Shown: one piece after another, positions 4,099 to 22,939 of the stretch
How positions within the stretch are numbered: position 1 is the first letter of the stretch
How the letters are laid out: every line of letters begins with the position of its first letter
Source: a virus
Virus record (IMG/VR): IMGVR_UViG_3300006409_000039
Span: 1 to 23,729 of that record
DNA length: 23,729 nt
Reading direction: 5' to 3' (one strand)
Notes under the pieces: model-generated
Seen by the model: only the letters and a program-made list of their open reading frames with translations
What the model was told of the DNA's origin: nothing
The model's database searches: none
Position numbers and translations under genes: made by a program

Positions 4099-5202
4099 TT
4101 AGCTTTTATTTAAAACTTTTCGAACTATATCTAAGACTTGTGCTGTCATGTCTCTAATGTCATAGTATTCTTCAGCAATCTCTCGCGCTTTCTCTCGGAA
4201 GTGTTTCGGGTCTTCTTTCATTTCGTTCCATAAAGACTCGATTTGATCCGCCATGTCAATAGGATCGAAAGGTTTTGCGTAACGGAAGGAGTGCGTGTCG
4301 CCAAAGCTATCGGTATCCCACGAAATGGTAGGTGTGCCACATGCAAGTGCCTCAATATACGAGCGAGAAGGTTCACCAATCATCACCGGACTGATATAGA
4401 TGTCGCCCCCTCTAAACCAGTGCTCTGGATACGCTTGCATTCCACTAAGGTCATACTTCCCTAGGAAGTGAATGAAAGGACCACGGTAAACCATCTTGCT
4501 CCACAAACGAAAGCCTTGCCCACAACCCCATGGGTGAAATCGAACATGTGGATTGCGTTTGTAGTATTCTTCGATAGCATATAGTAGGATAAATGGATCC
4601 TTCATTGTACGCCAAACTTCACCGTAGAGTAGTCGTGGCTTTCCATCGAGTTTCATCTTTGCGCCTTTCGGGTGGAAACGTTTCAAGTCTATGCCTTTCT
4701 TCACAAGGTGAAGCTTGTTTTCTGTGTCGAATGCTTTCCATAGGTAGTAATGGCGCTTATCGAAGACTATCGTTGCTTCACAGTCTTGGAGCCAATTGAG
4801 AGAAGCAGTGAACGATCTGCCATGTTCTGTTAATTCGTGCGATTCTGCTGTTAAGCAGGCTTCTGGACTTCCATGAATGAAGAAAATTCGTGGCTCTAGC
4901 CTTGCAGTGATAGGAGTTTCCGAATAGTGAATCATGTGAACGTTTGCTTTCTGAAACGCCCATTCGTGAGATTGAGCTACTAGTCCACTTCTAGGATCAA
5001 CCACACCACCGTCTGGTTTGTCCACTACCACTAGACCTGCCAGAATTCCTTCGTTCAGGTTCTCGTACATCACCAATTCTTTCGTTGTTTCATACAGTCC
5101 ACTCTTTCCGGGTGCCCATAGACACCAATGAGCAATGCAAATATCAATCTTTTCGCCTTGTTTCCATGGTGGAATTTCATCTATCTTTACTTGTTGAGCC
5201 AA
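4099..5202 (-). CDS. GT-B glycosyltransferase (family 4-like)
   Basis: The 367-aa product has the C-terminal half of a retaining GT-B glycosyltransferase. The segment VKKGIDLKRFHP is the usual hinge, the LLYGEVWRTMKD region is the nucleotide-side loop, and EPSRSYIEALACGTP is the E-x7-E sugar-nucleotide motif. The N-terminal half (about 1-150) would be the acceptor domain and is diverged. No membrane segment is present, so the enzyme is cytosolic and transfers a sugar from a nucleotide or activated donor to an unknown acceptor. Translation starts at TTG (5200-5202), seven bases after GGAGG, and overlaps the epimerase gene by 16 bp. Together with the next two genes it forms a compact glycan cassette that may modify the virion, the adhesin or the host surface. 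Confidence 0.85.
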   Translation of the reverse strand: MAQQVKIDEIPPWKQGEKIDICIAHWCLWAPGKSGLYETTKELVMYENLNEGILAGLVVVDKPDGGVVDPRSGLVAQSHEWAFQKANVHMIHYSETPITARLEPRIFFIHGSPEACLTAESHELTEHGRSFTASLNWLQDCEATIVFDKRHYYLWKAFDTENKLHLVKKGIDLKRFHPKGAKMKLDGKPRLLYGEVWRTMKDPFILLYAIEEYYKRNPHVRFHPWGCGQGFRLWSKMVYRGPFIHFLGKYDLSGMQAYPEHWFRGGDIYISPVMIGEPSRSYIEALACGTPTISWDTDSFGDTHSFRYAKPFDPIDMADQIESLWNEMKEDPKHFREKAREIAEEYYDIRDMTAQVLDIVRKVLNKS

Positions 5203-6071
5203 TCAACCACCTCCTTAATACCTGAAAAGATATCTGTGTTAGGGGTGTACCCTAGGAGAACTTTCGCTTTTGAGATATCGTAGACAAAAATGGTTGGATC
5301 GAACTTTCGTGATGCAACTATCTCAGGTTCTATGTTTTTTCCAGTTGCACGCCTACAGTACTCGTATACCATTTTTATGCTAAGTGCTTGGCCAGTACCG
5401 ATATTGTAAATTTGATTAAGGTATGGAGTCTCTAGCGCTAGTACATTCGCTTGTACTATATCATGGATACTAACGAAATCATTGAGCTGGTTTCCACCAT
5501 AGATAGTTGGTTTCCTGCCTTGTAATAGGCTTCTAACAAAGTTACTGATAGCACCATGCTGCTTTCGTGGACCATAGATGTATCCATATCGCAAAATAAC
5601 GTATGGCACTGAATAGTATTGTATTAGTTGCTCTGCAAAGAGTTTTGAATAGCCATAGATACTGGATGGTCTTGTCGGGCTGTCTTCGTGTATTGGTGAC
5701 TTTACGTGGTTTCCGTAAACGGAGCCAGTAGAACTAAACACTATTCGGTCTACTTGTTTCTTTTTACAAGCCACTAGAGTTCTCAACGTACCAAGTACAT
5801 TTACACGTATTGCTTCTACAGGATTTGCTTCCGCAATTCCAAAACGTGCAATTGCTGCCAAGTGAAGTACTTTGTCTCCTTTCTTCAGAGCATTTTCAAT
5901 TGGGTCAGTGCAGATATCCATTTTTACAGTTCGTAACAGGGGGTGTTTAATGGATTGTAAATTCTCAATGTTAAGATCGACACCCACTACTTCGTAGTTT
6001 AGTTCCAGTAGTTTCTCTATAGTGTGAGTGCCTACGAAGCCATTAGCTCCTGTTACTACTACTTTTGTCAC
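5187..6071 (-). CDS. NAD-dependent sugar epimerase/dehydratase (extended SDR)
   Basis: This is a complete extended short-chain dehydrogenase of the GalE/RmlB/WcaG type. The Rossmann motif TGANGFVG is at the N-terminus, followed by DLN at the end of strand 2, a LAAIA cofactor motif, SSTGSVYG with the catalytic Ser/Thr, and YGYSK with the catalytic Tyr and Lys four residues apart. The motif RYGYIYGP and NIGTG further on are typical of nucleotide-sugar epimerases. It would convert one nucleotide sugar into another for the flanking glycosyltransferases. An earlier GTG at 6075-6077 lies only three bases after the Shine-Dalgarno GGAGG. The GTG at 6069-6071, nine bases after it, fits better and gives 294 aa starting right at the first beta strand. 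It overlaps the upstream glycosyltransferase by about 29 bp. Confidence 0.87.
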   Translation of the reverse strand: MTKVVVTGANGFVGTHTIEKLLELNYEVVGVDLNIENLQSIKHPLLRTVKMDICTDPIENALKKGDKVLHLAAIARFGIAEANPVEAIRVNVLGTLRTLVACKKKQVDRIVFSSTGSVYGNHVKSPIHEDSPTRPSSIYGYSKLFAEQLIQYYSVPYVILRYGYIYGPRKQHGAISNFVRSLLQGRKPTIYGGNQLNDFVSIHDIVQANVLALETPYLNQIYNIGTGQALSIKMVYEYCRRATGKNIEPEIVASRKFDPTIFVYDISKAKVLLGYTPNTDIFSGIKEVVDWLNK

Positions 6072-7047
6072 GTTCACCCACCTCCTCGATGATACGCCTA
6101 ATCTTTCTCGCTATTTTCTTTTCATCATAGCGTTCGCGAACAAATTTGCTTACTTTTCTGGAGATAGCTCGCTTCTCGCTCTCATTTAGTTGGGACCACC
6201 ATAGTATTCTGTTAACCGCCTCTGTTTGAGTCTTCACAACGTATTCTGACGGATAGAACAAGTCAGCGCCTAGCCAGCAATTAATGACCGGGAATAGCCC
6301 TTTTGCACATGCTTCTGCTAGTGACTTCTGGAAACCTTCTTGGATGCTGTTTGAGAAGTAGACGTCTTTGTCATCAAGCCACTTCGACCAATTATCAATG
6401 CTATCTTGTTGGCTAAGAATTATCTTGTCTTCAAGTCCCAAAGTTTCGATGAGTTCGCGAAGTGGCCCAACATACTCTTTTATGAGCTCACCTCTCCACT
6501 GGTGAGTCCAATCCCCCTTGATATATAGAGTCCACTCACTGTCATGTTTTAGAAGTTCGTAGTATGTTTGTACGGTTGTGTATACTCGCTTCTTGAAGAA
6601 GATCGAAGTAGCCTGCATACATAGATTCTTACCGTATTTCTTATTCGGTGTCAGCTCGAACATTTCTGTATTGAAACCGATAGGTAACTCGTACATTGGT
6701 GGTCTGTATGGAACCTCTTCTCTCATGAATTTATGCTTCATAGGCGTTGTGAGTATAAGCGCTTTTACTTTTCGCCAGTCCACTTGATTGGCTCTATACA
6801 CTTCAATTCCGTGCATTCTAGCAACAATAGGACACTGTAGCGCTGACATATGTGTAACTTCAGGTAGTGGATAGTGACAGAAATCAAAGAATGCAACGTC
6901 ACACCAGTCAATCAGACCACGTATGCTAGCGAAGTCCAGAAATTGATTTCCTGTTGGAATAAACGGCTCTACTGTATGGTATCGTGTCAGCTCTTGTAAA
7001 ATTGGCAGAACAAAACTATTATTTATAGCAAAGAGTGCAATGTTCAT
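6043..7047 (-). CDS. GT-B glycosyltransferase (family 1/4-like)
   Basis: This 334-aa protein has a short diverged N-terminal half and a recognisable GT-B C-terminal half. LPIGFNTEMFEL is the post-linker motif, YIKGDW corresponds to the donor-domain strand, and the acidic motif is QEGFQKSLAEACAKGLFP, matching E-x7-E with the typical G-x-P replaced by G-L-F-P. The absence of a signal peptide or transmembrane segment suggests a cytosolic enzyme. It starts with ATG at 7045-7047, overlapping the stop of a 20-codon leader ORF as ATGA, and has its own GGGAGGG a few bases upstream. It is the first gene of the glycan cassette after the capsid genes. Acceptor and donor cannot be read from the sequence. 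Confidence 0.82.
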   Translation of the reverse strand: MNIALFAINNSFVLPILQELTRYHTVEPFIPTGNQFLDFASIRGLIDWCDVAFFDFCHYPLPEVTHMSALQCPIVARMHGIEVYRANQVDWRKVKALILTTPMKHKFMREEVPYRPPMYELPIGFNTEMFELTPNKKYGKNLCMQATSIFFKKRVYTTVQTYYELLKHDSEWTLYIKGDWTHQWRGELIKEYVGPLRELIETLGLEDKIILSQQDSIDNWSKWLDDKDVYFSNSIQEGFQKSLAEACAKGLFPVINCWLGADLFYPSEYVVKTQTEAVNRILWWSQLNESEKRAISRKVSKFVRERYDEKKIARKIRRIIEEVGERDKSSSNRS

Positions 7048-7161: not shown

Positions 7162-8076
7162 TTATGCGGTTACGCCCGAAATCTTGATTATTCGTTGCGA
7201 AGTCGATGTTGTCGAACTATCTGGAATGACTCTTGTCGCAAAGAACTGCCGGACGGTATATTCCAGTCCAACGCCTGTTATTCTTTTTACTTCTACCAGC
7301 GGAACTTTCGGATGAGCAGCAGCTACGCCATGTATAGCAGTGTCTGGTCCTTTAATCATTAAGAGTGCTTTATTGCCATTGACCAGTGTAGAGTTCTTTG
7401 TTGGATGTAGGGACAAACCGTATGAACGTTGTATGTAGTCACCGAGTTGTATTCTGATATTCTCAACTTCTGTCAGTGACAGCAAAGGTGTCCATGCTCT
7501 TATTGGCAAAACTAACGCCATATTCTTAATGTCGTCTGGTTGAACACCTGTCGCTTGAACGGCCAAATTGATTGCGTTTTTGATATCTTTCACAATACTG
7601 GTGGCAGCAGCAGCTGGCCATGAGGCAGAAGCCGCAACAGAAGTAGTATGCGCGTAGTCGTGCAAAGTTGATATAATGTTGTCGTCTTTCGCTTTCGCAA
7701 GGGCCTCTGACAGCCTTCGAACACCAGTTTCATACTGTATGTTTTCTAACTGGCGCATTGTTGCTTCGTCTGTGATAAGGAAGCGACCTTCAGCTTTCTG
7801 CATCTCCATGTAGAAGGTCGTCCAGTTGATTTTACTTTCGCCACCTCTAGCTCCTTCAGCAACTGGATACTCCATAGTCATTTCGGAAGGATACTGGTAT
7901 TTAACGTCCAGACCAGAGAACTGTCGTACACCTACCAGTTTTAGTCCTTGGGAAATGAAGTCAGCTCTTCTGTAGATGACTTGTCGAACTATTTCAGCCT
8001 TTATGACATCAGGTGTCGTAGTTGTTTGAAGCAACTTTCTTTGCTTCAGTTCTTGTACGAGTTGTTTAAGTTCCAT
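7162..8076 (-). CDS. Major capsid protein (HK97 fold)
   Basis: This 304-aa protein has the length and layout of an HK97-fold major capsid protein of the type common in archaeal and thermophile siphoviruses. A helical N-arm is followed by an E-loop-like segment near residues 55-80 (YPSEMTMEYPVAEGA), then a P-domain with a long 'spine' helix around residues 105-140 (LSEALAKAKDDNIISTL). An Ala-rich A-domain follows, and the C-terminus contains the beta-strand pair VRQFFATRVIPDSS and RIIKISGV. The start is ATG with GAGGTGA upstream, directly behind the decoration protein. The gene order protease-scaffold, decoration protein, capsid protein is the canonical head module. A 55-base spacer follows it, whose start can pair with the next Shine-Dalgarno. 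Confidence 0.85.
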   Translation of the reverse strand: MELKQLVQELKQRKLLQTTTTPDVIKAEIVRQVIYRRADFISQGLKLVGVRQFSGLDVKYQYPSEMTMEYPVAEGARGGESKINWTTFYMEMQKAEGRFLITDEATMRQLENIQYETGVRRLSEALAKAKDDNIISTLHDYAHTTSVAASASWPAAAATSIVKDIKNAINLAVQATGVQPDDIKNMALVLPIRAWTPLLSLTEVENIRIQLGDYIQRSYGLSLHPTKNSTLVNGNKALLMIKGPDTAIHGVAAAHPKVPLVEVKRITGVGLEYTVRQFFATRVIPDSSTTSTSQRIIKISGVTA

Positions 8077-8087
8077 CTTTAGTCACC

Positions 8088-8525
8088 TCATGGAAGATTC
8101 AGCAAGCACTTCACTTTTGCAGCGGCAACAGCTGAAGCTTTCGCTTCTAGAGCAATACCTACGACATATTTGCGAAGGATGGTTGCGCCAGAAGCGTAGA
8201 CGTTAGTCCAAGTTGTTCCTCTAGCTGCACCAGCTGATGCAGCAGCGCTAATTGTTATTGGTTGACCAATAGAGATGGCACCGGCATCACGAACCCAAAC
8301 ATCAGCAACACCGTGGCGAATAACAGCAATTGGAACGCTTGATACGTAACTGCCAGCAACTCTTGGGCTTTCAGTGGTTTGCATAGCTACACCAAATGGC
8401 ACGCTAGTTTTTGCACACTTGATAACTCGTCCGGAAGTGTTGATTGCTAAGACATATCCTTCTTTCTTAAGTGCTTGGTTACATTTGTAACTCAAAAGGT
8501 CGTGTGGGAATTTGTAAAGGCCCAT
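8088..8525 (-). CDS. Capsid decoration/cement protein (DUF2190-like)
   Basis: The 145-aa protein is Ala/Ser/Gly/Val-rich with the strand pattern of DUF2190-type head decoration proteins. An early segment is GYVLAINTSGRVIKCAKT, followed by 'PFGVAMQTTES', a central 'VADVWVRDAGAISIGQPIT' and a terminal 'YVVGIALEAKASAVAAAKV'. The phrases 'x-GVA' and 'VGIALE' are characteristic of small trimeric cement proteins that sit on the capsid surface. It begins at ATG 8523-8525, overlapping the protease-scaffold stop as TAATG, and the major capsid gene starts 11 bases after its own stop. The position between protease-scaffold and capsid is typical. I am fairly sure of the role, less of the exact family. 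Confidence 0.78.
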   Translation of the reverse strand: MGLYKFPHDLLSYKCNQALKKEGYVLAINTSGRVIKCAKTSVPFGVAMQTTESPRVAGSYVSSVPIAVIRHGVADVWVRDAGAISIGQPITISAAASAGAARGTTWTNVYASGATILRKYVVGIALEAKASAVAAAKVKCLLNLP

Positions 8526-9310
8526 TACTTAGCCACCTCCGGAGGTAGATCTCTCTTCACTACTTCGTCGATGTTATCTGTGCCGAACATTGATCTGATT
8601 ATCTCCGATACTTTTTGTTCGTCTGTTGACACAGCCACTGCAGATAGTTTAATTGCTGGACTCAACCGTTTTACTGTGTCAAGCTGGTGTTCTAGCATTT
8701 TCAACTGTAGATCTACACACTCAACGCCTTCGAGGAATGTTTCAACGTTAAAGCTTTCATCTATCTCTTTGATAGATGAGATTAACTCTTGTTTCTTTGT
8801 CAATTTGCGGTCTTCCTCTAGTTTCTTGAGTGTCGCTAACTCGTCCTCTAGCTTTTTCAGTTTCAGCTGAAGAGTATCGATTTCTTTTTCTTTTGCTTCA
8901 ATAGTGTTCTCAAGTTTCTCTACTTCTTCTGTCCAGAACTCCTCGAGATCGGCTGACATCTTTTTCTTTGAAGGTGCAGGATATGGATAAGGATACGGGG
9001 ACTTTATGGCTTCCTCTAGTACACTAATGACAGCTGCGATTGTTTTACGGTCTAGCCCTTTCTCCTTCAAACGGTTACGGATCCATCTTAGGAATGCCGC
9101 TTTAGTTGGCTTCCTTAGCTCTGTCTCTATAACCGTCGGAGTTACTGCTGGTGTTTGAACAGGTTCGTTCATTTTCTCTTGCTGTGGCTTTATCAGCGTT
9201 TTCAATACGTTGAGGATCTTCTTGACTTGGTCTTCGGGGATTCCTTCGTCCGTCAGTTTCTTTGCCAGTGAGTCAAAGAAGTCAGTTTCCATTTTTGAAT
9301 TCTCACTCAT
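8525..9310 (-). CDS. Possible nested in-frame scaffold protein
   Basis: An ATG at 9308-9310 lies in frame inside the protease-scaffold gene (Met191) and is preceded by GAGGTGG about five bases away. Initiation here would give a 261-aa protein made of the helical and coiled-coil part only, without the protease domain. The arrangement is that of lambda C/Nu3 and Mu I/Z, where a shorter scaffold is made in excess of the protease. The Shine-Dalgarno and in-frame ATG are visible; actual use is inference. Confidence 0.4.
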   Translation of the reverse strand: MSENSKMETDFFDSLAKKLTDEGIPEDQVKKILNVLKTLIKPQQEKMNEPVQTPAVTPTVIETELRKPTKAAFLRWIRNRLKEKGLDRKTIAAVISVLEEAIKSPYPYPYPAPSKKKMSADLEEFWTEEVEKLENTIEAKEKEIDTLQLKLKKLEDELATLKKLEEDRKLTKKQELISSIKEIDESFNVETFLEGVECVDLQLKMLEHQLDTVKRLSPAIKLSAVAVSTDEQKVSEIIRSMFGTDNIDEVVKRDLPPEVAK

Positions 9311-9880
9311 GTTTTCCACCTCACGTGGTTTAGGGGCTATCAATCTGTACCCATCTGTATCCGGAACTAGGAGGATCTCCATCGTAGGTCCGGATTGGGT
9401 ACTGCCACCTTGCCCAAGGGTGACTTTCTGTAGTTGAATCGGTGCTACCGATTCGACCCGACATGTGCTACATGCCGGGTTTTCGACCAGTGCACCTGCT
9501 CTGAATTGCACATTGGTAGCTACTTTCTTACCATCCTTCACGATTGCATCAACATCTATTTCGGGTGAAATACCCGTCTTCTCACCTCTTATAATTTTGT
9601 TGATTTCCTCTTTGTCGAAGATGATACCTTCTGCTTTCACACCTTGCTCGGTCAATGCATACGCTGTCCAGAAACCAACAACCGCTTCATCTAAGTCGAA
9701 ATGTCCTCGCTTTATAGGTTTACCTGGAATAGTTGTTGCTCCTTCGTGAATAACAGTGGTAGGATAATAGACGGTTTCACCATCCATTCCTGTCCAAGTT
9801 CCTTCGTTTAGAAAGTCGACACGAATCTTCAGTACTTCACCTATCTTTTCCCAGTTGAGAGGATAGCTCTGAAGTTTCAC
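8525..9880 (-). CDS. Prohead protease fused to scaffold protein
   Basis: This 451-aa protein begins with GTG (9878-9880), overlapping the stop of the upstream multi-enzyme gene as GTGA. Residues 1-150 look like a prohead serine protease of the HK97/Mu-I type: strand-rich, with GHFD containing His60, GISPEIDV containing Ser105, and RAGALVENPAC closing the domain. The linker is followed by a charged helical region; residues about 315-375 form a long Glu/Lys heptad-rich coiled coil typical of scaffolding proteins. The N-terminal protease would mature the capsid and degrade the scaffold. Two oddities are a short Pro-Tyr repeat (YPYPYPAP) near residue 300 and an internal Met191 with a GAGGTGG Shine-Dalgarno, which could give a separate scaffold. 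Confidence 0.82.
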   Translation of the reverse strand: MKLQSYPLNWEKIGEVLKIRVDFLNEGTWTGMDGETVYYPTTVIHEGATTIPGKPIKRGHFDLDEAVVGFWTAYALTEQGVKAEGIIFDKEEINKIIRGEKTGISPEIDVDAIVKDGKKVATNVQFRAGALVENPACSTCRVESVAPIQLQKVTLGQGGSTQSGPTMEILLVPDTDGYRLIAPKPREVENMSENSKMETDFFDSLAKKLTDEGIPEDQVKKILNVLKTLIKPQQEKMNEPVQTPAVTPTVIETELRKPTKAAFLRWIRNRLKEKGLDRKTIAAVISVLEEAIKSPYPYPYPAPSKKKMSADLEEFWTEEVEKLENTIEAKEKEIDTLQLKLKKLEDELATLKKLEEDRKLTKKQELISSIKEIDESFNVETFLEGVECVDLQLKMLEHQLDTVKRLSPAIKLSAVAVSTDEQKVSEIIRSMFGTDNIDEVVKRDLPPEVAK

Positions 9881-12800
9881 TTTCCCACCTTCGGTGCCTT
9901 TTCTTCACGCTTAAGAGTCCATAAATTCATACGTGGTTCTTTCGCAACCAAGACGAAGTGTCCTTTCAAACGTTTCCCTTTGATGTCCATCTTTAGGAAT
10001 GTATCCGATGATTCGTATATTTTGACTTTCAATGTATCTAAAGTCTCAATATATGCTGGTGTCTTCTTTGTTGGGTTACCAGGTGTACCAGGCTTAAGGT
10101 ATGTGGGGCCATCTAAGCCTTTTTTCATCCACGATTTGTCCTTACACCAGTCAAATATTGCGCTAACTTCATCGGCATATATTGGATTATCATTCAATAT
10201 GAAGTGTAGCAGTGGTTTATTCGGATCCCAGTCAATGCGTAAGTCCCAATGTTCCGTTGTTGGACCTACTCGAACTGGCTTCTTTTCAGCAGACCACCAG
10301 TGGTGCTGAAGTACACCCTTACATTCTATCGGAGATGTTATCGTTGGAGGAACTTTAGCTCCGAGATACACAGCCATACTAAGCTTGACTTCACCACGTT
10401 TGATCGCGTCAACCAGTGCGTCTCTTAAGCGCTTTCGTTCAATAGTATTTTTCTTCTCCCAATATTTAAATCTTGTAGGAATACGTGAACGGATCTTAGG
10501 TGGCAGGCAGCTAACACCATAAGGCGGAATCCAGCCCTTCTTGACAGCACGTCTCGACAAAACGTAGGGTAGCTGATCTTCCGGCTTCCACATTAGATAG
10601 ACAAATTCAGTACGTGGCATTTCTCTCTTCCATGGATTAGGCAGTAGACGAATAACCCACCGTCCATTAAACTTTGTATCTTCGATAAAGAACTCATAAA
10701 AGTCTGGTTTCTGTGCACCTACGTATACTGTACACTTTTGAACGATTGAAAATACACCATATTCGTATTTTGTTGCACCTACCTCACCAGGTTCTACTAC
10801 TCCTTCAATGTCCAGCCACTCGACAGGTTCCGGCTTTTTCTTCTCAACGAACAACTTACGTCTTAAGCTCTCAATATACGTTTGAGGCTTATTTGTCATC
10901 TTGAAGTAACGATCCCAATCTTTCTCGATTTCCTTCGCCTGCTTAACTGTGGTGACATCGTCTTTTATGACACCAGCTCTTTGATGTGCAATGGTGAAGC
11001 CTTCCAAGAAGTCATCTACCTTTATTCTAAAGTCCATGTGGCAAGATTTCCCACGATAATGATTCTGCATTACAGCTTTATGGGGCTTATCATCCATTGG
11101 AATTCGAAGATAGGTGGTTGATGGAGTGAACTCGTGTAACTTTAGAACTTCATCAAGTGTGTAACCAGTAAGCGAGGCAAAGAATTTCGCTTCTTCTATG
11201 ATATCGGCAGAGCCCATTACTTCCTTCTTGACTAGCAGCTCAACTTTATGTGCGATTTCTATTACGTCTGTTACACTGTCTGGTGTTTTTTGTCCTTTTC
11301 GTACTTCTATGAATTTTGGTTCGTAAACTGTTAGCCACTGTTCGTTCGTACGCTTGTTCCGGTACCAGTTAACGGTGTGAAATGAAAGTGTAATGACCGT
11401 ACCAGGTAGAAGCTTACCTTTAACATTGAAAGTTTTTCCAATGTACATATAAGACTTGTTACCAACTTTGTAAACGAGCTTCTCCGGAACCTTCCAGCCT
11501 GGAGGAATTCGAACTCCTACACGATAGTTGAAAACTCCCGGTGTTTTTGTTTCGATACCTTCCAATATTACAACATGGATATCAGCCATCTTTTTCCACT
11601 TTAGCCAAGCGTCTGTAAGTCCGCTTAGCGGATAGTCACTGTCAGCTAGTTTGACCAACGCACCTTCACTTGCAGGTGCTTTTGCCACTTCTTTTATAGC
11701 GTCGATAAGTTCTTTGGGGCTTTTCACTAGTATACTCGGAGTCATATTGAACTTTCCTGGTTTCGGAACATCGTTAGTGCTTTGAGACCAGGGGGTGAGC
11801 TCGAGATACTTCAACCGTGTAAGATATTCCATTTTATGTAAGTCCCCAACTGTTCCTGGCAAGTCGTGCTTCTTTACTTTTGGATCATAGAAGTAAACAC
11901 AGTCGTATACGTTTGGAACGATGTGACTATCGTCTACAGGTCCCTTTGCATGTAAGTATCCTCCAGTGACTTCACGAGGTTGATGTTTTCCATCTTTCCA
12001 AGATTCCACTTCCGCCAGCCAAATTCCTTCTTCAGGGCCGTGCTCTTGCAGCCACTTTACAAGTGTTGGTACTCTATGTGTGAATTCTCGCCCATCTTCA
12101 CTGAAGGCTTTCACTACCTTTCCTTTCTTGTGCCATTCTGAATGAATACCATCGTACTTCTTCTGTACAACTATTCCTTTCTTTATGTCTTCAGGCTTAA
12201 ACCACTGTCCCACTACACTAGGAATTAAATCTGCGAATCTGTAGTATGCTCTATGGCCTTTAAGCGCCAGAAAGAAACGTAGTGGAACTAGCTTGTCCTC
12301 TTTATAGCTTTGCTTAGCTTGTGCAGCTGCTTCCTTCTCTCGAACTTCAGCAACTCTTGCTTGCATTCGTACTAATTGTCGTAGCTTTGATGGAACTAAA
12401 ACGAGATCGTATAGCGGAATATAGTTTGTGAATGGACCACCGTATTCACCTACCCAGTGATCTTGGAATCGGTCAGCGAATTTTGGAGCTGCTCTTCCTA
12501 AACGAAATATTATAGGTTGGTGTATTTCCTTTATATACTTTGGATCTGACCATAGTCTATCGATGTCTCCTTGTGTACTTCCCCAATTTGCAATGCCACC
12601 TACTATGCTGATGTAGGGCCGTTTCAGAACTATTGGTTTCTCATAGGCTTCCAGTACCTCACGTAGAGTGATTGTTTCACCTAGTATTTCTCCATAGTGT
12701 GCTATTGGTGCATACGGGGATTCTTTCTCGATCTCTGTTAGGATCTCTTCCACACTCTTCATTAAGGGAGTTGTGTGCTCAAAAGGTAGTTTTCTTTGCT

Positions 12801-14388
12801 CGATTTCTTCAACGATTAAGTTGTGGAATCTCTTGACCTCTTCCTTTGTTAAGCTATGTGGTAGGGTTTTCCAGTTGTCTCCAGCCCACATATGGCAAAT
12901 GCGATGGTCATCGTAGAGTTGACGGTCCTTCCACTCTTTTAGGAGACTGGGGTCTTTCAGTACTTCTTTTACTGTTGAGGGTGAAACTAGGTATGTTTCA
13001 AGGTTGATTTCTACGTTCCTTATCCACTTTTGAATGCCTTGTGGTACCTTCACGGGTACGGGTTCGTCGAATAGCTTGATGATGCTGAATTTGTAGACGT
13101 ACACCTGTTTTGCATCAGGCCACCAGGACTTCCATTCTTCATCGGAGATTTGATGCAGGTCTCGCATTTTGTAGCGTACCAAACTGGCATTGTATGGGCC
13201 CTTACATTCTGTGATTTCTAGTAAACCGTACGCTTTCTTATCATCGATGAATATGAGTGGTGTCTTGAGATATTGTTTAGGAGTAGGCTTAGTTGATATG
13301 ATGATAAGTTTCTTTCGCTTCGCAATAAGCTTTCCGTGAGGTTCAACTAGGTAGATGCCAGGAGGATACTTTGCGAGTTTGCCTGTCTTATATTCTATCT
13401 CGATGCCTAGATATCCTAGTAGCTCCTTGGCTATTGGACCAAAATTACCTGCAACAATCTTGGACGGCTTGTATTTCAGTAGCATCTCGATGACTTTAGG
13501 TGCTGCAGGTGACTCTTCTACATAAGGGTTTTTGATCCACTCTTTGGTTGAGCCTTTTACGATCAAGAAGAGCTTCGCTCTAGCAAACACATCTGCAATC
13601 TCGTGCTCATTATTCATCGCGTAAATGATGGTATTCGCTCCTAATCTGAGCACTTTGTTGTCGGTAGCTATCTCGATTGTGAGGTTGTATTGCTTTTCTA
13701 GTTGCTTTAGATGTCTCTTGAGTTCTTCGTTAGCTATTTCGATGAGCTCCTTTCCGCAATGTGTAATGATTACGTGCTTAATGCCTACTTCATTGCACCA
13801 TCTGACTTGCTCTTCGATTGTTGCATGACCATACGGTTTATTTGTTTCTTCGTCTCTTCGAACTCTCCCTGGCTTATCGGTTATATAGCTACCGTCTCCT
13901 ATGTAAGTGTTAATGCCCTTCAATGCGAGCTTATAATTGCGTAAGCTCAAGATGTCTGGGAAGTATCCTATGGTTGACTTACCATCTGAAATGACAAAGC
14001 CATTTGTAGGGAATTTGATGCTGTGACTGACTGGAATCGGCTTAACGTCCAAAGATCCTAGTTTGTTCCACTGGTAACGAATCAAATTCTTATGGTCAAT
14101 GACTTCTTTGATGTTGGAGCTTAAAGTTTCCCAAACTGCTGGAAGCATCCAGACATCAAGACCTTGTAACTTTGGGTCTTCTAACCCACCTGCATGGTCG
14201 GGGTGAGCATGTGTAAGTAGTACGTGTGTTGGCTTCAACTTTGTAATAGTGCTTGAATGTTGCCAATCCCTTCCGTAGTCAATGAGCAGTCGAGTATCAT
14301 CCTTCTCCACTAGTATACAACTATGTTTCAGATGGTTCTTAGATTGCTCCTCTATGTTTGCTTTCGTGCCTAGAAATGTTACTTTCAT
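9877..14388 (-). CDS. Five-activity DNA end-processing megaprotein (MBL, Pol-beta-like NTase, ATP DNA ligase, two LigD-type phosphoesterases)
   Basis: The 1503-aa product is a chain of enzyme domains. Residues 1-250 are a metallo-beta-lactamase fold hydrolase: HAHPDH (His60, His62, Asp64, His65), His122, Asp145 and His210. Residues 252-335 resemble a dinitrogenase iron-molybdenum-cofactor domain (ADVFARAKLFLIV, then VAGNFGPIAKELLGYLGIEI). Residues 360-455 may be a PUA/ASCH-like barrel, and 465-545 are helical and unknown. Residues 570-665 hold a Pol-beta-type nucleotidyltransferase signature, GSTQGDID (603-610). Residues 700-1035 are an ATP-dependent DNA ligase: motif I KYDG with Lys744, motif III Glu793, motif IV EGALVK at 908, motif V WLKWKK at 928, then an OB fold. 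Residues 1100-1270 and 1355-1495 are two LigD-type 3'-phosphoesterase domains with H-x-D-x-R at 1117 and 1380. It overlaps the flanking genes by four bases each. DNA end cleaning, filling and sealing is the natural reading; the substrate is inferred. Confidence 0.85.
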   Translation of the reverse strand: MKVTFLGTKANIEEQSKNHLKHSCILVEKDDTRLLIDYGRDWQHSSTITKLKPTHVLLTHAHPDHAGGLEDPKLQGLDVWMLPAVWETLSSNIKEVIDHKNLIRYQWNKLGSLDVKPIPVSHSIKFPTNGFVISDGKSTIGYFPDILSLRNYKLALKGINTYIGDGSYITDKPGRVRRDEETNKPYGHATIEEQVRWCNEVGIKHVIITHCGKELIEIANEELKRHLKQLEKQYNLTIEIATDNKVLRLGANTIIYAMNNEHEIADVFARAKLFLIVKGSTKEWIKNPYVEESPAAPKVIEMLLKYKPSKIVAGNFGPIAKELLGYLGIEIEYKTGKLAKYPPGIYLVEPHGKLIAKRKKLIIISTKPTPKQYLKTPLIFIDDKKAYGLLEITECKGPYNASLVRYKMRDLHQISDEEWKSWWPDAKQVYVYKFSIIKLFDEPVPVKVPQGIQKWIRNVEINLETYLVSPSTVKEVLKDPSLLKEWKDRQLYDDHRICHMWAGDNWKTLPHSLTKEEVKRFHNLIVEEIEQRKLPFEHTTPLMKSVEEILTEIEKESPYAPIAHYGEILGETITLREVLEAYEKPIVLKRPYISIVGGIANWGSTQGDIDRLWSDPKYIKEIHQPIIFRLGRAAPKFADRFQDHWVGEYGGPFTNYIPLYDLVLVPSKLRQLVRMQARVAEVREKEAAAQAKQSYKEDKLVPLRFFLALKGHRAYYRFADLIPSVVGQWFKPEDIKKGIVVQKKYDGIHSEWHKKGKVVKAFSEDGREFTHRVPTLVKWLQEHGPEEGIWLAEVESWKDGKHQPREVTGGYLHAKGPVDDSHIVPNVYDCVYFYDPKVKKHDLPGTVGDLHKMEYLTRLKYLELTPWSQSTNDVPKPGKFNMTPSILVKSPKELIDAIKEVAKAPASEGALVKLADSDYPLSGLTDAWLKWKKMADIHVVILEGIETKTPGVFNYRVGVRIPPGWKVPEKLVYKVGNKSYMYIGKTFNVKGKLLPGTVITLSFHTVNWYRNKRTNEQWLTVYEPKFIEVRKGQKTPDSVTDVIEIAHKVELLVKKEVMGSADIIEEAKFFASLTGYTLDEVLKLHEFTPSTTYLRIPMDDKPHKAVMQNHYRGKSCHMDFRIKVDDFLEGFTIAHQRAGVIKDDVTTVKQAKEIEKDWDRYFKMTNKPQTYIESLRRKLFVEKKKPEPVEWLDIEGVVEPGEVGATKYEYGVFSIVQKCTVYVGAQKPDFYEFFIEDTKFNGRWVIRLLPNPWKREMPRTEFVYLMWKPEDQLPYVLSRRAVKKGWIPPYGVSCLPPKIRSRIPTRFKYWEKKNTIERKRLRDALVDAIKRGEVKLSMAVYLGAKVPPTITSPIECKGVLQHHWWSAEKKPVRVGPTTEHWDLRIDWDPNKPLLHFILNDNPIYADEVSAIFDWCKDKSWMKKGLDGPTYLKPGTPGNPTKKTPAYIETLDTLKVKIYESSDTFLKMDIKGKRLKGHFVLVAKEPRMNLWTLKREEKAPKVGK

Positions 14389-15050
14389 GGTCTAAGCAAC
14401 TCCCTAAGGTTGGGTATTCGATAACCAAGTTTCGGCCCTAGTAGCCAAACAACAAAGCGCCTAAATGGGCATTGTTCGGGAGCTTCTTCTTTCGTATAAC
14501 AGACCAATATGTCACGGTTGTTCTCCATACAAACTGCAGCCATATATTTGCCTACAGATACTAGTTTATTCACTAACTCTGTAAAGAATTCCTTTGTCTT
14601 CTCAAGACACTCCTTCCAAGAATGACCTTTGCGATAGAGTTTCAACCCATGGAGAAAGGCTTTTTCGAACTCGTCTAAAGCGTCTGTAGTGAAACTTACA
14701 ACATCAGTATAGCCCCAGTAAGCTAAGCAACCCTTCTTATGGGCTTCTATACCCAGTGATTTTGCAGATAAACACGCTAAAGTGTAGACTTCTCTATTTG
14801 CTAGTAACTCTACGTTATCGAAGTTTATCACACATTTTCGATCTTGGCTCACAAGACAATCTTTGTTTCCGTGATCAAAAAACACTAGCATATCACGTGG
14901 ATAATTACGCAGTACGGTTTCCACCTGATCGCGTGTTGCCTTCTCTTTTGGTAAGTCAATACACGGAAAGAGCTTCTTCACCTTCTCTGCCCATCGGTAT
15001 GTGTAATAGGTAGCAGTATCGAATTCTGGGCGAACCAAGATGCAACTCAT
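14385..15050 (-). CDS. Caspase/gingipain-like cysteine peptidase (clan CD)
   Basis: This 221-aa protein shows the two catalytic blocks of clan CD peptidases. LVFFDHGNKD has the His-Gly pair (His60), and EVYTLACLSAKSLG has the nucleophile Cys93 at the end of a hydrophobic strand. A third block, KGCLAYWGYTDVVSF, matches the strand and turn that follow Cys in gingipain/CHAT-type enzymes. No signal peptide or membrane segment is present, so it would act in the cytosol or inside the prohead. The start overlaps the 78-aa gene as ATGA and the end overlaps the 1503-aa megaprotein as ATGA, so both partners are probably made in step. It could process virion proteins, activate the megaprotein or act on the host after entry. 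The fold call is good; the target is unknown. Confidence 0.75.
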   Translation of the reverse strand: MSCILVRPEFDTATYYTYRWAEKVKKLFPCIDLPKEKATRDQVETVLRNYPRDMLVFFDHGNKDCLVSQDRKCVINFDNVELLANREVYTLACLSAKSLGIEAHKKGCLAYWGYTDVVSFTTDALDEFEKAFLHGLKLYRKGHSWKECLEKTKEFFTELVNKLVSVGKYMAAVCMENNRDILVCYTKEEAPEQCPFRRFVVWLLGPKLGYRIPNLRELLRP

Positions 15051-15283
15051 TTAACCAACTCGTTCAGCTTTGAGCGAAATTGGGGATTACTTTTGTAGAG
15101 CTTCAATGCTTGCTTCATGAAGTGTTTTACTAGGCGCTTATTGCTAGAACTATTGTGATGCCCATTTAAGATGCTAGCGAACTCTGCGTATGTCAGTACT
15201 TGGTTGCCAATTATTATTTTCTCATTTGGCTTACTTAACGCTTCTAGTTGAATTGCCCGCTTTATGACATCTTGCGGTTTCAA
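15047..15283 (-). CDS. Small hypothetical protein between portal and caspase-like peptidase
   Basis: This 78-aa protein is not recognised. It begins with TTG (15281-15283), overlapping the portal stop as TTGA, with AGAGG a few bases upstream, and ends overlapping the peptidase ATG as ATGA. It is basic and largely helical, with a central 'NQVLTYAEFASILNGHH' segment and a C-terminal amphipathic stretch ending in NELVK. The conserved overlap on both sides argues for a real gene. It may be a head-assembly cofactor or an adaptor for its downstream neighbour; this is context only. Confidence 0.65.
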   Translation of the reverse strand: MKPQDVIKRAIQLEALSKPNEKIIIGNQVLTYAEFASILNGHHNSSSNKRLVKHFMKQALKLYKSNPQFRSKLNELVK

Positions 15284-16797
15284 ACTGTTTCCCTCTGTTG
15301 CTCTTTACTTTCTGGAGTTTTAGGTGCTTCGGAAGGTGCCTCCCTTCTAATATATTGAGCGATTATATCTGAAAGGGTACGAGTGTACTCACCAACTCGA
15401 CCCTGTCTTCGAATATCGACTAGTAGAGCTTTATCTTCTTCCGATAGAGGCTCGAATAAACCTACTTCGTCTCGAAGCTCATCGATGGTAGCTATACCCA
15501 TTGCCGAAATAACAGCTGCACGTCTAACTGCTTCACTCTTCTCAAGCCCAAGCATGAATTGGAACCTAATGTCTATTTTGTTTAAGTCTTCCTCTGTAAA
15601 TCCTTCCTTTGGATATTTGCTACGTATATGCCGTCTTACTAGTTGTAGAACTTTCATCTTTATGATATCAGCTAATGCTTCAGCGCTTAATAGGGTGTAA
15701 GAAGCGACTACCAGTTCAGAAGCATAGGTGCTTCGACCTCTACCTGTAACAGAAGCTTCGTGCGCTCCTGTAGCTGCGAAAATACTCTTGTTTATCTGGT
15801 CCAATAACGGGTTTGGATCAACATATGTTATATGGCGGGGTTCAACGTATGAGATTTCGGTATTCTTTCCTGTGATAAAGTCTTGGTCGACATGCTTCAG
15901 CGGTGTTGCAATCGCAGACTTATAGTCTTCTAACTCACTTTTAGCAGCCTCTTTTGCTGCACTAATTCGAGCTTCTAAAGTTTCACCTGAAAACCGTGTT
16001 GGGTCGTATGCACTAAGATCCAGTTTGTGATGCATACGTGGAACTAGTCTATGCCTTAAAATTATGTCATTGATTCGTAATACTAGCTTCCAGAGCAGTT
16101 GTGAACGCAATGCTTCCAGTGGACTTATAGACCAAATTCCAAACGTATAACGACCTCGGATGTCGTAGACTACTTCAGCACGATTATTTAGGCTGAAGTG
16201 AAGGATCTTTTCTTTTGGGAAGATCTTTTGCTCGATAGGCCCGTATACCTCGCTTCCATATCCTTCGTTTAAGATGTAGTAGTTTGCTTGAAAAATTTGT
16301 GCACTAATATCGTCTATTTGGTCAGTAGACTCTAAAATAGTCAGAGCATGTATCGGAAGTGGCTGTAGTTCTTTCAATCCTCTATTCATATCGATATAAT
16401 AGATGTCGTCCCCGTCACGCAGTAGGTGAAATGCTACGCTATAGAAAAGGCTTCTTAAGTCGTATTTTTGTTCAAATTCCGCACAGTACCGTAACAGGCG
16501 TTGCTCTTTCTCATCCAGTTTGTGGCCGATACGTACACCTATACCTTTGTAAGCTGCTCTAACCATCAGTGCAATTCGATTGAGAGCACCATACAGTTCG
16601 GGATCACACTCTACAAACATCCTGTAGAGGTCGTATTTGTTCGAAATGTTCACGATACGACTGTAGATATCTTTAAGAGGTTTCAGTACAGGATAGTCCA
16701 ACTCAGTTGATGAGAAAACAGGACTCGGAGCTACTCCTAGTGCTAAGCGCTTAACCGTTGAGGATAGTGTTGTATAGATTCTTCGAAATACAGACAT
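15280..16797 (-). CDS. Portal protein
   Basis: The 505-aa product has the length, order and look of a phage portal protein: it follows the large terminase directly (TAATG overlap) and precedes the head genes. The N-terminal part includes a helix-rich clip and stem precursor (YDLYRMFVECDPELYGALNRI), a central beta segment with the DDIYYIDMNRGLKELQPLP pattern, and a long crown-side helix region at residues about 380-460. A WSISPLEALRSQLLWKL segment corresponds to the helix following the wing domain in many portals. It would form the dodecameric ring through which DNA is packaged and ejected. No frame disruption is visible. The C-terminal 25 residues are a charged, Pro/Glu-rich tail. Confidence 0.85.
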   Translation of the reverse strand: MSVFRRIYTTLSSTVKRLALGVAPSPVFSSTELDYPVLKPLKDIYSRIVNISNKYDLYRMFVECDPELYGALNRIALMVRAAYKGIGVRIGHKLDEKEQRLLRYCAEFEQKYDLRSLFYSVAFHLLRDGDDIYYIDMNRGLKELQPLPIHALTILESTDQIDDISAQIFQANYYILNEGYGSEVYGPIEQKIFPKEKILHFSLNNRAEVVYDIRGRYTFGIWSISPLEALRSQLLWKLVLRINDIILRHRLVPRMHHKLDLSAYDPTRFSGETLEARISAAKEAAKSELEDYKSAIATPLKHVDQDFITGKNTEISYVEPRHITYVDPNPLLDQINKSIFAATGAHEASVTGRGRSTYASELVVASYTLLSAEALADIIKMKVLQLVRRHIRSKYPKEGFTEEDLNKIDIRFQFMLGLEKSEAVRRAAVISAMGIATIDELRDEVGLFEPLSEEDKALLVDIRRQGRVGEYTRTLSDIIAQYIRREAPSEAPKTPESKEQQRETV

Positions 16798-19358
16798 TAA
16801 ACTGTCACCACTACATTAATCGGAATTTGAGACCTTTTAGAATTGTCCAGCCCCCAAATAGCATTTGCTAGCGCATCTGCAACATCCTTTCTTCCTCTTG
16901 GAAGGTGATCTACTTTCCCTGATGCTTTTAGTTGTAGCTGTTTCAGCTCTCGTACCAACTCGGGATAATTGCAGATGTCTAGCTTTCTACTGTAGAAGAG
17001 CTCTTTCACTCTATCATGCTCGGCTTTTCCAGCATGATGTATAACTACGGGAATTCCCCGCTTTCTGACGTCTGAGATGACTTCGGGATAATTCCACATA
17101 TCGAACACTACTGTTGAGATCGGGAAAAGGTCAATACACTTGAAAATGAAGTCGCGAACCTTGAAAGGGTCTACTTCACCCTTCTTTGGGGGTGTAAGTA
17201 GTTTCAGTCCTGGCACTATGTATTTACCCGAATTCAAATCATGGTAAGCTATACAAAAGCCGAAAGAATCGTGCTTGAAAGATGGGTCACCAGCAAGGAC
17301 ATACATCTGGGAGCGGTCAATATATTTATTTAATTTTTCTAGGTCAAAGCCCTCTTTCATCAGGTCAAAAATATTTGGACGCTCTTCGTTAACATAGATG
17401 ATATCTTGGTTGCCGTAATAAGCTTGCTCATAGAAGCTAGGTTCACACCCGTAGTCTCTCCAAAACGCTGCGGGGTCTTTCTTTAGTTCTGCTTGGAGCT
17501 TGGGAGAGTCGAATGGAAGATTTGGGTTAAATTCCCATGTGGGACACTTGACTCCTAGCATTTCGGGTTGTGTCTTTGATTGCTCATACAGCTGCATAAC
17601 GAGATCTGTTGGGGTTTGAACGCTAGAGATGACGATAACCTTTCCATCTAAGCCGAAAGTTGTTGTGCCCCTACTGAGCGAAGTATAAACATTTTTTGCT
17701 CCACGCTTACTGGTTGACTGTTCGAATCGTGCTAACTCATCGAAGATAGCAACTTTAACAGATCGACCTACTAGTGACGCTGAAGAACTAGTTCCACATA
17801 GGATCACTATTGGTTTGTTGAAGCGTATTTCTGTCTCGTAAGCTTTCGGGTTATATTGACGGAAAAATGGGCTGTGCCGTACTTTCGCTAAGATTTCGCT
17901 GAAGACTGTATCCCTTGCCTGATCTTCGGATACAGCAACTGCAACAATAAATATCTTGCTTCCAGGAGCAAGGCCGTAGTGTTCTGCTGGATCCGGAAGT
18001 ATGAGAAGTCTAAAAGCTTCGTATAGGGCAAAAACTGCAGATAAAAAGGTCTTTCCACTATTGTGCAGAACTATATCGTTACCTATGTACCATCCGGTTT
18101 CAGGTACGTGATAATCATACGTCTCTTTCTTTCCACAGTATTCTATCTTTGTAATCGGCTCCCAGTAAATGCTTGGCTCTGTAACTAACTTAAGCCATGG
18201 ATGATCGAGGTTCTTTGCAAGTTTCCTTAGAGTATAGATCGTTAGATGATTCCTACAATTAATAGTGGAATTGACAAGTTTGTCCATCTTATAGTTTGAG
18301 ATATTTAAGATTCTTCGTAGGTCCGCTTTCTTGAATGGTAATTTGTCGATTGGCGAGTTAGCTGAAGACTTTCGCTTGTAAGTTATTTCTGGAGCAATAA
18401 TAGAGAAATCATCGAGAACTTTCAAATAGTACGCTTCGAATCCTTTTCGCTTCATGGCTTTGTAGCATCGGAGGATACTCCGAATTCCAAATCTCAGCAG
18501 TAGGTGCTGGATTTGTCGCAATAAAGTTTCGCTAGAAGAATAGTAGTATGGAGATTCTTCAAGCCCGCCATCTCCCCGCCAGTACCAGTAGAGGAATTCT
18601 CGTAAACTGTCTCTATCATACTCAAAAACTTCATCCGGTACGAACTTGTTCTTTGATAATTCATTGAACAGTTTCAATCTTTTCATTTCAGCTCTGAATG
18701 TGCCATGCTTAATACGATAGTCTTTCGAGTTACCTAAGTCTACCAGCTCACTTCCAAACTCGGCCATTAGAGCTTCTTTGAAGGCTTTGAGGATTTCTGG
18801 GTCTCTATTCGAGAAAGTAGTACAGCTTCGTAAGCAACCTTCAGCAAGTGTTAGTGCTAAGACTCGTGCTCTTAAAGGACAGTGTTTGTTTCCAAAATAG
18901 GGCAAAGATCGAGCAAGCGCAATGTAGTCTCCAACTTTGAGTTGCCTTAATTCTCGTTCTCCAAATGGTGTTAGGAATGGTTGGTTCTCTGTAACTTCCA
19001 CAACTCTTCCACTATAGGTTTCTACCTTATAAACGTCTCGTATTCCCTGTTTTATCAAGGTGAAGTTACTTGTTGAACGTATTTCACTTCCAAAAGTCGG
19101 GATGGAAGAGGGTTGCTCACAAATGGAAACTAAGCGTCCGGTAGAAGTATCTACGATTAAGGTATTAGAAGTGGTACATCTCATTCCTGCGACTAGAATG
19201 AGCTCGGAATAGCTACCTTTGTAAAACTCTCGTAGGATCTCTGCTTGCTTAGGGTAGAGCTTCAAGCCTAGAAAGAATGGGTGGGTAGCAAAGAATACTG
19301 GGTCAGCAGCTGCTTTAAGAACTAGACTGACCTGTTGTAGTTTTTGTACCTGCTCCAA
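16797..19358 (-). CDS. terL: Large terminase subunit (TerL) with an intein in Walker A
   Basis: The precursor is 853 aa. Residues 1-60 and 434-853 join to a 480-aa TerL. Splicing restores the Walker A motif GMRSGKT. Walker B is KVAIFDE (Asp540-Glu541), a coupling-like motif SSVQTP follows at 578, and the C-terminal RuvC-like nuclease shows acidic residues at AGDPS (Asp691), VVFDMW (Asp753) and GRKDVADAL (Asp825, Asp828). The enzyme is the ATP-driven packaging motor and DNA cutter, acting at the portal. The best start is TTG at 19356-19358, overlapping the small terminase by 44 bp; its Shine-Dalgarno is weak, so a start a few codons later is possible. The inteinless length and motifs agree well with TerL. 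Confidence 0.9.
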   Translation of the reverse strand: MEQVQKLQQVSLVLKAAADPVFFATHPFFLGLKLYPKQAEILREFYKGSYSELILVAGMRCTTSNTLIVDTSTGRLVSICEQPSSIPTFGSEIRSTSNFTLIKQGIRDVYKVETYSGRVVEVTENQPFLTPFGERELRQLKVGDYIALARSLPYFGNKHCPLRARVLALTLAEGCLRSCTTFSNRDPEILKAFKEALMAEFGSELVDLGNSKDYRIKHGTFRAEMKRLKLFNELSKNKFVPDEVFEYDRDSLREFLYWYWRGDGGLEESPYYYSSSETLLRQIQHLLLRFGIRSILRCYKAMKRKGFEAYYLKVLDDFSIIAPEITYKRKSSANSPIDKLPFKKADLRRILNISNYKMDKLVNSTINCRNHLTIYTLRKLAKNLDHPWLKLVTEPSIYWEPITKIEYCGKKETYDYHVPETGWYIGNDIVLHNSGKTFLSAVFALYEAFRLLILPDPAEHYGLAPGSKIFIVAVAVSEDQARDTVFSEILAKVRHSPFFRQYNPKAYETEIRFNKPIVILCGTSSSASLVGRSVKVAIFDELARFEQSTSKRGAKNVYTSLSRGTTTFGLDGKVIVISSVQTPTDLVMQLYEQSKTQPEMLGVKCPTWEFNPNLPFDSPKLQAELKKDPAAFWRDYGCEPSFYEQAYYGNQDIIYVNEERPNIFDLMKEGFDLEKLNKYIDRSQMYVLAGDPSFKHDSFGFCIAYHDLNSGKYIVPGLKLLTPPKKGEVDPFKVRDFIFKCIDLFPISTVVFDMWNYPEVISDVRKRGIPVVIHHAGKAEHDRVKELFYSRKLDICNYPELVRELKQLQLKASGKVDHLPRGRKDVADALANAIWGLDNSKRSQIPINVVVTV
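18060..19178 (-). mobile_element. Intein with LAGLIDADG-type homing endonuclease, in TerL
   Basis: A 373-aa in-frame insertion (TerL residues 61-433) begins with Cys61 and ends LHN with His432-Asn433; the extein +1 residue is Ser434, giving a class 1 splice layout. It interrupts Walker A between Arg and Ser-Gly-Lys-Thr, a frequent intein site. The N-terminal splicing block CTTSNTLIVD and a C-terminal block (TYDYHV then YIGNDIVLHN) are visible. The block B segment reads TENQPFLT (residues 123-130), with Gln126 at the position where nearly all inteins have His. The middle contains two LAGLIDADG-like motifs, LALTLAEGCLR and YWYWRGDGG, indicating a homing endonuclease that is probably intact. Confidence 0.9.
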
Positions 19359-21842: not shown

Positions 21843-22139
21843 ATGGATCAAGAAACATTTCGTGAGCTTTTAACAAGAGGAATGACTAGAGCAAAGAAAC
21901 ATGGAAAAGCTAACTGGCCAAAGATTCTCGCAGCACTGCGTAAAGATGGTGGAATCTACTCAACGACACAAGTCTGGGAAATATTTGTCAAGAAAGCTGT
22001 TAACCGTTACCGTACGAAGGAAGTCCTTCACAAATATGCTGATACAGGAAAGATCGCGAGAGTCTACAAAGGTGGCCAGTATTGGTGGACCGCAAACCCT
22101 GAGATTGTGAAGAGAGTTAGAGCTGTGAGGAGCAATTAA
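21843..22139 (+). CDS. Winged-helix-like protein, first paralogue
   Basis: This 98-aa protein and the one at 22646 are about 60% identical over most of their length. Shared segments include HGKANW, KDGGIY, the helix around VNRYR.KE, and KGGQY.W. Helices, a recognition-helix candidate (TTQVWEIFVKKAVNRYR) and a final beta-hairpin (IARVYKGGQYWWT) give a plausible winged-helix layout, implying DNA binding. It has a GGAGGTGG Shine-Dalgarno and starts at ATG. Possible role: transcription control within the virus, inferred from fold only. Confidence 0.68.
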   Translation: MDQETFRELLTRGMTRAKKHGKANWPKILAALRKDGGIYSTTQVWEIFVKKAVNRYRTKEVLHKYADTGKIARVYKGGQYWWTANPEIVKRVRAVRSN

Positions 22140-22645: not shown

Positions 22646-22939
22646 ATGGATGAGAAATTGTTTAGACAACTTCTCGAGAAGGGGGTAACGAAAGCTAGGC
22701 CACATGGCAAAGCTAACTGGAACAAGATTCGAAATCAACTAACAAAAGACGGTGGTATCTACACTACCAGTCAAATCTGGGAACAGTTCGTAAAGAGAGT
22801 TGTCAACAGATATCGTTGCAAGGAATGGCTTCACGAGCAAGCTGAGAAAGGAATTTGCCTCAGAGCATACAAAGGTGGACAATACTATTGGACATTCAAC
22901 CCCGAGTTAGTCGAGAAGTACGCAAAGAAGGGGCAGTAA
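22646..22939 (+). CDS. Winged-helix-like protein, second paralogue
   Basis: This 97-aa protein is a close paralogue of the one at 21843, with matching HGKANW, KDGGIY, VNRYR, and a KGGQYYW hairpin. Differences concentrate in the linker and C-terminal tail. Its start is ATG after AGGAGGTG. The pair flanking one unrelated gene suggests duplication within the operon and divergence of targets. DNA binding is inferred from the winged-helix-like layout. Confidence 0.68.
   Translation: MDEKLFRQLLEKGVTKARPHGKANWNKIRNQLTKDGGIYTTSQIWEQFVKRVVNRYRCKEWLHEQAEKGICLRAYKGGQYYWTFNPELVEKYAKKGQ

Follow-up and report, generated by a model that had tools for sequence, protein, structure and literature searches.

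A 1503-residue protein with predicted DNA end-healing and ligase domains, encoded among the head genes of a virus and very probably coupled to the head

The window, that is the whole stretch analysed here, comprises 23,729 nucleotides of viral DNA (IMG/VR record IMGVR_UViG_3300006409_000039, positions 1 to 23,729); features described below lie on its minus strand unless otherwise stated. A single unbroken ORF (9877..14388; ATG at 14388, stop at 9877) encodes a giant protein of 1503 aa that carries, from the N- to the C-terminus, a metallo-beta-lactamase (MBL) hydrolase, an ASCH domain, a probable Pol-beta-type nucleotidyltransferase (NTase), an ATP-dependent DNA ligase with its OB fold, and two predicted LigD-type phosphoesterase (PE) domains. 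The original prediction had given these coordinates correctly, and the one multi-enzyme frame that it proposed was confirmed by Pfam (MBL and ligase), family profiles and predicted folds; the strand is minus, and the ASCH domain had been overlooked. The MBL, ligase, OB and two PE domains that it named were all borne out, and its NTase stands on motif and fold, with a weak database match.

The gene order in the window is a possible TerS, TerL (with an intein), portal, a 221-aa ORF, the giant, prohead protease, cement protein and MCP, in agreement with the proposed location between portal and prohead protease. The large terminase (16797..19358) was recognised by Pfam and phrog profile matches; its intein carries a LAGLIDADG domain, and inteins or intein-like domains are also found within the giant ORFs of loci L013, L047 and L081. 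The portal protein (15280..16797) matched phrog_12 (E 0.006) and a portal profile that has the window portal among its seeds. The 221-aa ORF (14385..15050) had no match in a Pfam scan; by eye it is caspase/CHAT-like (H60-G, A-C93-x-S). On the other side of the giant lies a prohead protease of the S78/XkdF type with a coiled-coil, scaffold-like tail (8525..9880), too diverged for a Pfam match and identified by an iterated family profile, which it entered at E 5.7e-8 before being included in it. It is followed by a capsid cement/decoration protein (8088..8525; Pfam Phage_cement, E 1e-4, below the cut-off) and by a probable major capsid protein (7162..8076; phrog_264, E 0.004, and position). The giant shares 4 nt with the gene on either side, ATGA on the side of the 221-aa ORF and GTGA on that of the protease gene, and hence is translationally coupled inside the head operon. 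Two further observations concern the rest of the window. Between the MCP and the tail-side genes (4099-7047), translations inspected by eye reveal two glycosyltransferase-like genes around an NAD-dependent epimerase-like gene, which may decorate the virion or the host surface; the opposite (plus) strand carries a pair of small paralogous ORFs, each about 98 aa long (21843-22139 and 22646-22939).

A single-sequence scan of viral contigs with the window protein alone found no relatives, and alignments were needed to find them. Profile scans found relatives in IMG/VR contigs and at ten loci of species genomes, seven from archaeal MAGs (Methanosarcinales, Methanophagales, Archaeoglobales, Thermoprotei and unclassified Euryarchaeota) and three from bacterial ones; clustering of the set left 45 non-redundant loci. 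The family belongs to head-tailed viruses, mostly of uncultivated archaea. The only named virus found with it among 50,697 phage records was ANMV-1: in that collection the L022 and L016 queries returned nothing beyond ANMV-1, and with the L005 query, among the matches listed, only its methylase part matched elsewhere. AlphaFold, run with family alignments, gave confident folds for the MBL, residues 341-461, the ligase with its OB fold and most of both PE domains. The match lists of structure searches with the whole model were occupied by MBL and ligase, and are informative for those two domains.

The MBL domain (residues 1-252; 13633..14388) matches Lactamase_B_2 over residues 32-210 (E 7e-14, above the Pfam cut-off), and its metal ligands are retained in all nine aligned relatives. 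One structure match was VIA (Z 23.6, 221 aligned, rmsd 2.6); the closest structures are YhfI, PhnP, PqqB and RNase Z (Z 21-24), with Apyc1 also found (Z 20). The ASCH domain (residues 341-461; 13006..13368) is indicated by its predicted fold and by profile matches to TTHA0113 (E 8e-5) and, in relatives, to PF04266 (E 0.002). Residues 587-677 (12358..12630) bear the motif GG..N.G.T.GDID, of which D608 and D610 are retained in 36-37 of 38 relatives; the best database match was AF0614 at E 0.26, and this motif, together with the predicted fold and secondary structure, makes a Pol-beta-type NTase probable.

The ligase is identified by Pfam, PDB profiles, structure and conservation. Its adenylation domain (residues 705-934; 11587..12276; nucleophile K744) matches DNA_ligase_A_M over residues 736-932 (E 6e-10, above the Pfam cut-off), the family profile matches archaeal and human DNA ligases with E values down to 2e-26, and in structure the core matches archaeal ligases and human Lig1 with Z of about 25. 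The adenylation motifs of ATP-dependent ligases (KxDG, E, EG, KxK) are all present, as is the OB fold (residues 936-1048; 11245..11583; structure). K744 is retained in 41 of 42 relatives, E793 and R805 in 41 of 41, and E908-G909 in 40 of 40. RNA ligase identity was rejected, the Pfam RNA_ligase matches being far weaker, where present, than those to DNA_ligase_A_M.

The first PE domain (residues 1093-1310; 10459..11112) contains the array Q1108-x-H1110-x6-H1117-x-D1119-x-R1121, and the second (residues 1352-1495; 9904..10335) was located by the LigD_N match of relatives and the family profile. When searched alone against Pfam the window protein had no LigD_N match, and here too alignments were needed. 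LigD_N was matched by the first PE of L017 (E 2e-7, just above the cut-off), more weakly and below the cut-off by those of L035 and L068, and by the second PE of L016 (E 2e-6, just below it). The family profile matched the archaeal LigD-PE structures 3p43 (E 7e-8), 3p4h (E 1e-6) and, weakly, 3n9b. Taken together, the LigD_N matches of relatives and the profile-structure matches identify a predicted LigD-type 3'-phosphoesterase. In the first PE, H1110 is retained in 41 of 41 relatives, and H1117, D1119 and R1121 in 40-41 of 42; equivalents of the LigD Mn site (H42/H48/D50, with R52) are thus present in 40-41 of about 42 relatives. Inspection of the alignment by eye revealed no clear equivalent of LigD His84 and Tyr88 in the first PE. 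The metal-site H and D of the second PE are present in the window protein and, among 48 aligned copies, in 17 (H) and 18 (D). The ligase and PE folds on which the original prediction depended were detected, and their catalytic residues are retained in relatives. The family keeps such residues at 25-40% identity; the identity of the motifs is far beyond chance, and a chance motif or an assembly chimera was ruled out by this conservation and by independent assemblies.

A PE fold with a Q-x-H-...-H-x-D-x-R metal site and an ATP-dependent ligase in one chain are shared with bacterial LigD (POL-PE-LIG), the ligase of NHEJ. Unlike LigD, the giant has no detected AEP primase or Ku partner, and both of its PE domains follow the ligase; it adds the NTase, MBL and ASCH domains and a link to the head protease, and its ligase core is nearer to archaeal replicative ligases. 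No Ku was found in 19 records searched, which may be partial (a control genome was positive), and no Pfam primase match was obtained in the giant polypeptides scanned. Both absences had been anticipated from the sequence, and membership in the bacterial Ku-LigD NHEJ pathway was ruled out on these grounds.

Across the family the first PE and the ligase are the best conserved parts, and the N-terminal domains are variable. D12-class Dam adenine methyltransferase domains occur within the polyproteins of six loci (L005, L013, L045, L054, L059 and L081), and a pyrimidine-dimer glycosylase-like domain in two (L003 and L033); these additions are consistent with a set of tools that protects and repairs the genomic DNA. 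No ligase was detected in L054, L059 and L068, the first two of which have methylase, PE and protease, so sealing is not obligatory in all members. The fused Dam domains, the MBL matches to PhnP, YhfI and Apyc1, and the description of polyvalent proteins as a phage theme (PMC5512222) would suit delivery by the capsid of a counter-defence protein, whose PhnP/Apyc1-like MBL, ASCH, NTase and Dam domains act against host signals or restriction, and whose ligase and PE mend host-made cuts in incoming DNA. We regard this as improbable: conservation is best in the first PE and the ligase, and the N-terminal domains are the variable part; it also overlaps with the end-healing and sealing explanation given below.

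The suggestion that the protein forms part of the capsid or is coupled to it found strong support in its relatives. Of 35 non-redundant loci that can be classified, 12 have ligase/PE domains fused to an XkdF/S78 protease. Among the 38 loci for which downstream sequence is available or a fusion is present, 11 encode the protease within the same polypeptide, 13 in the next gene and five within two to four genes; in six no protease was recognisable downstream. A portal gene lies within six genes upstream in 21 of the 35 loci with enough upstream sequence. Pfam matches to the fused protease range from E 6e-23 to 1e-28 in L005, L009, L047, L054, L060 and L063, and reach E 1e-7 in L059; in L013 and L066 a separate ORF joins the protease to the PE part. 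As fused forms recur across separate metagenomes (L003/L004, L008/L009, L057/L063, L058/L060 and L055/L065/L066), they are not assembly artefacts. In the tree of the first PE the state changes between fused and separate about six times (bootstrap 5-6), and at least two changes are forced by strong branches. In addition, a homologue of the window ASCH domain is found on the portal C-terminus in the clade of L010, L011, L018, L032 and L075. The interior of the prohead is where portal C-termini and the prohead protease are located, and the two kinds of fusion therefore both point there. These fusions, considered with the gene order, make it very probable that the giant is coupled to the head.

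The same evidence bears on a simpler view: the giant would be an ordinary ligase that the virus uses in replication and to seal nicks late, and it would merely lie in the head operon, the fusions being accidents of operon crowding. In 17 of 18 records with a ligase match, which may be partial, the head-linked enzyme is the only ATP-dependent ligase found, and for this reason it may also serve replication. However, divergent viruses repeatedly show the protease fused in frame and a domain shuttled onto the portal, and the gene is located in the late head operon; as a full account, this view seems very improbable.

In the window itself the giant and the protease are separate ORFs. The last codons of the giant are GTG GGA AAG TGA, and just before the stop lies a slippery heptamer, G GGA AAG (9880..9886), of the type used by lambda G/GT; relative to the giant, the protease is read in frame -1. 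The expected count of such a heptamer in the 28-nt zone is 0.016, and the stem downstream of it is not unusual (z -0.58). A candidate -1 frameshift at this site is possible, and would yield a protease fusion as in the relatives; the purine-rich ribosome-binding region may also account for the heptamer. As a conserved trait the slippery site was rejected, being absent at other adjacent giant/protease junctions.

From the domains, the conserved catalytic residues, the gene order and the fusions we infer encapsidation, proteolytic release and ejection, as well as the substrate and the timing of action. The best explanation that we can offer is a capsid-targeted polyprotein for DNA end healing and sealing, which would be packed with the DNA and act on the genome at entry; we give it a probability of roughly one half. 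By their predicted activities PE and ligase are a clean-and-seal pair, and sealing or repair of the genome on entry is plausible. The giant would be translated together with the head genes and would enter the prohead by association with the protease (window) or by fusion to it (relatives), probably near the portal; the prohead protease would free it, and it would then be packed with the DNA. At entry it would accompany the genome, the PE clearing blocked 3' ends, the NTase perhaps adding or filling, and the ligase sealing nicks or joining ends, such that a linear genome could be mended or circularised at once without Ku. That this amounts to a virion-borne machine for Ku-independent end joining, targeted by the protease to the prohead (in the window possibly via the -1 frameshift) and circularising or repairing the genome at entry, is put forward tentatively, with the odds somewhat against it.

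Another possible explanation is repair coupled to packaging, in which an enzyme at the prohead or portal heals nicks, gaps and 3' blocks during pumping by the terminase and so avoids a stall, ejection not being needed. The order TerL-portal-giant-protease and the portal-ASCH fusions would suit it, as would the findings in T4 that deficiencies in ligase and endonuclease VII lower the number of DNA-full heads and that nicked short substrates package poorly (PMC10893049). It leaves the Dam methylase add-ons unexplained, however, and T4 relies on ordinary replication enzymes for such healing; we consider it doubtful.

The giant has parallels in known systems. The virions of African swine fever virus contain a virus-encoded ligase and polymerase X that serve in repair, and AsfvLIG is among the structural matches of the giant's ligase (Z 20); in that virus, however, the repair enzymes are separate proteins, and it belongs to an unrelated realm. 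ANMV-1 AJP62006, annotated 'ATP-dependent DNA ligase', has the order NTase-ligase-OB-PE1-PE2 and is encoded immediately after the portal gene; it differs from the window giant in lacking MBL and ASCH and in having Met in place of the Arg of the first PE. The neighbouring AJP62005 (L002 1913-3193), annotated 'MutT-like phage hydrolase', matches the portals of the set and is also a profile seed, and a 1166-aa ORF after the ligase (L002 5868-9368) ends, by eye, in a MuF-like motif. The main text of the papers considered here on ANMV-1 and ANME-1 viruses does not mention a ligase.

Packaging and injection have been proposed for enzymes that are joined to MuF, portal or capsid serine peptidase (PMC9503650 and PMC5512222). 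The giant resembles such polyvalent, MuF-type or head-fused effectors in that several enzymatic domains are joined in one protein that is fused or linked to head genes, a combination characteristic of capsid-packaged polyvalent proteins. It differs from them in its core of DNA end healing and ligation, its S78/XkdF protease fusion and its occurrence mostly in archaeal viruses; the passages of the two papers that were searched report no DNA ligase in such proteins. A search of the open-access literature found no description of a fusion between a DNA ligase and a prohead protease, nor of a DNA ligase placed in archaeal virus heads. The giant family is a form of capsid-linked polyvalent protein with a LigD-like set of activities, outside the Ku-LigD pathway.

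The annotation of ANMV-1 is corrected by this family, which may also yield compact ligase-phosphoesterase enzymes from hot habitats. If the proposed role is true, many viruses, mostly of archaea, would have in their heads DNA repair enzymes with a physical link to capsid maturation. A single protein family would then make it possible to test how an injected linear genome is turned into a molecule that replicates, and how such viruses deal with nicks during packaging.
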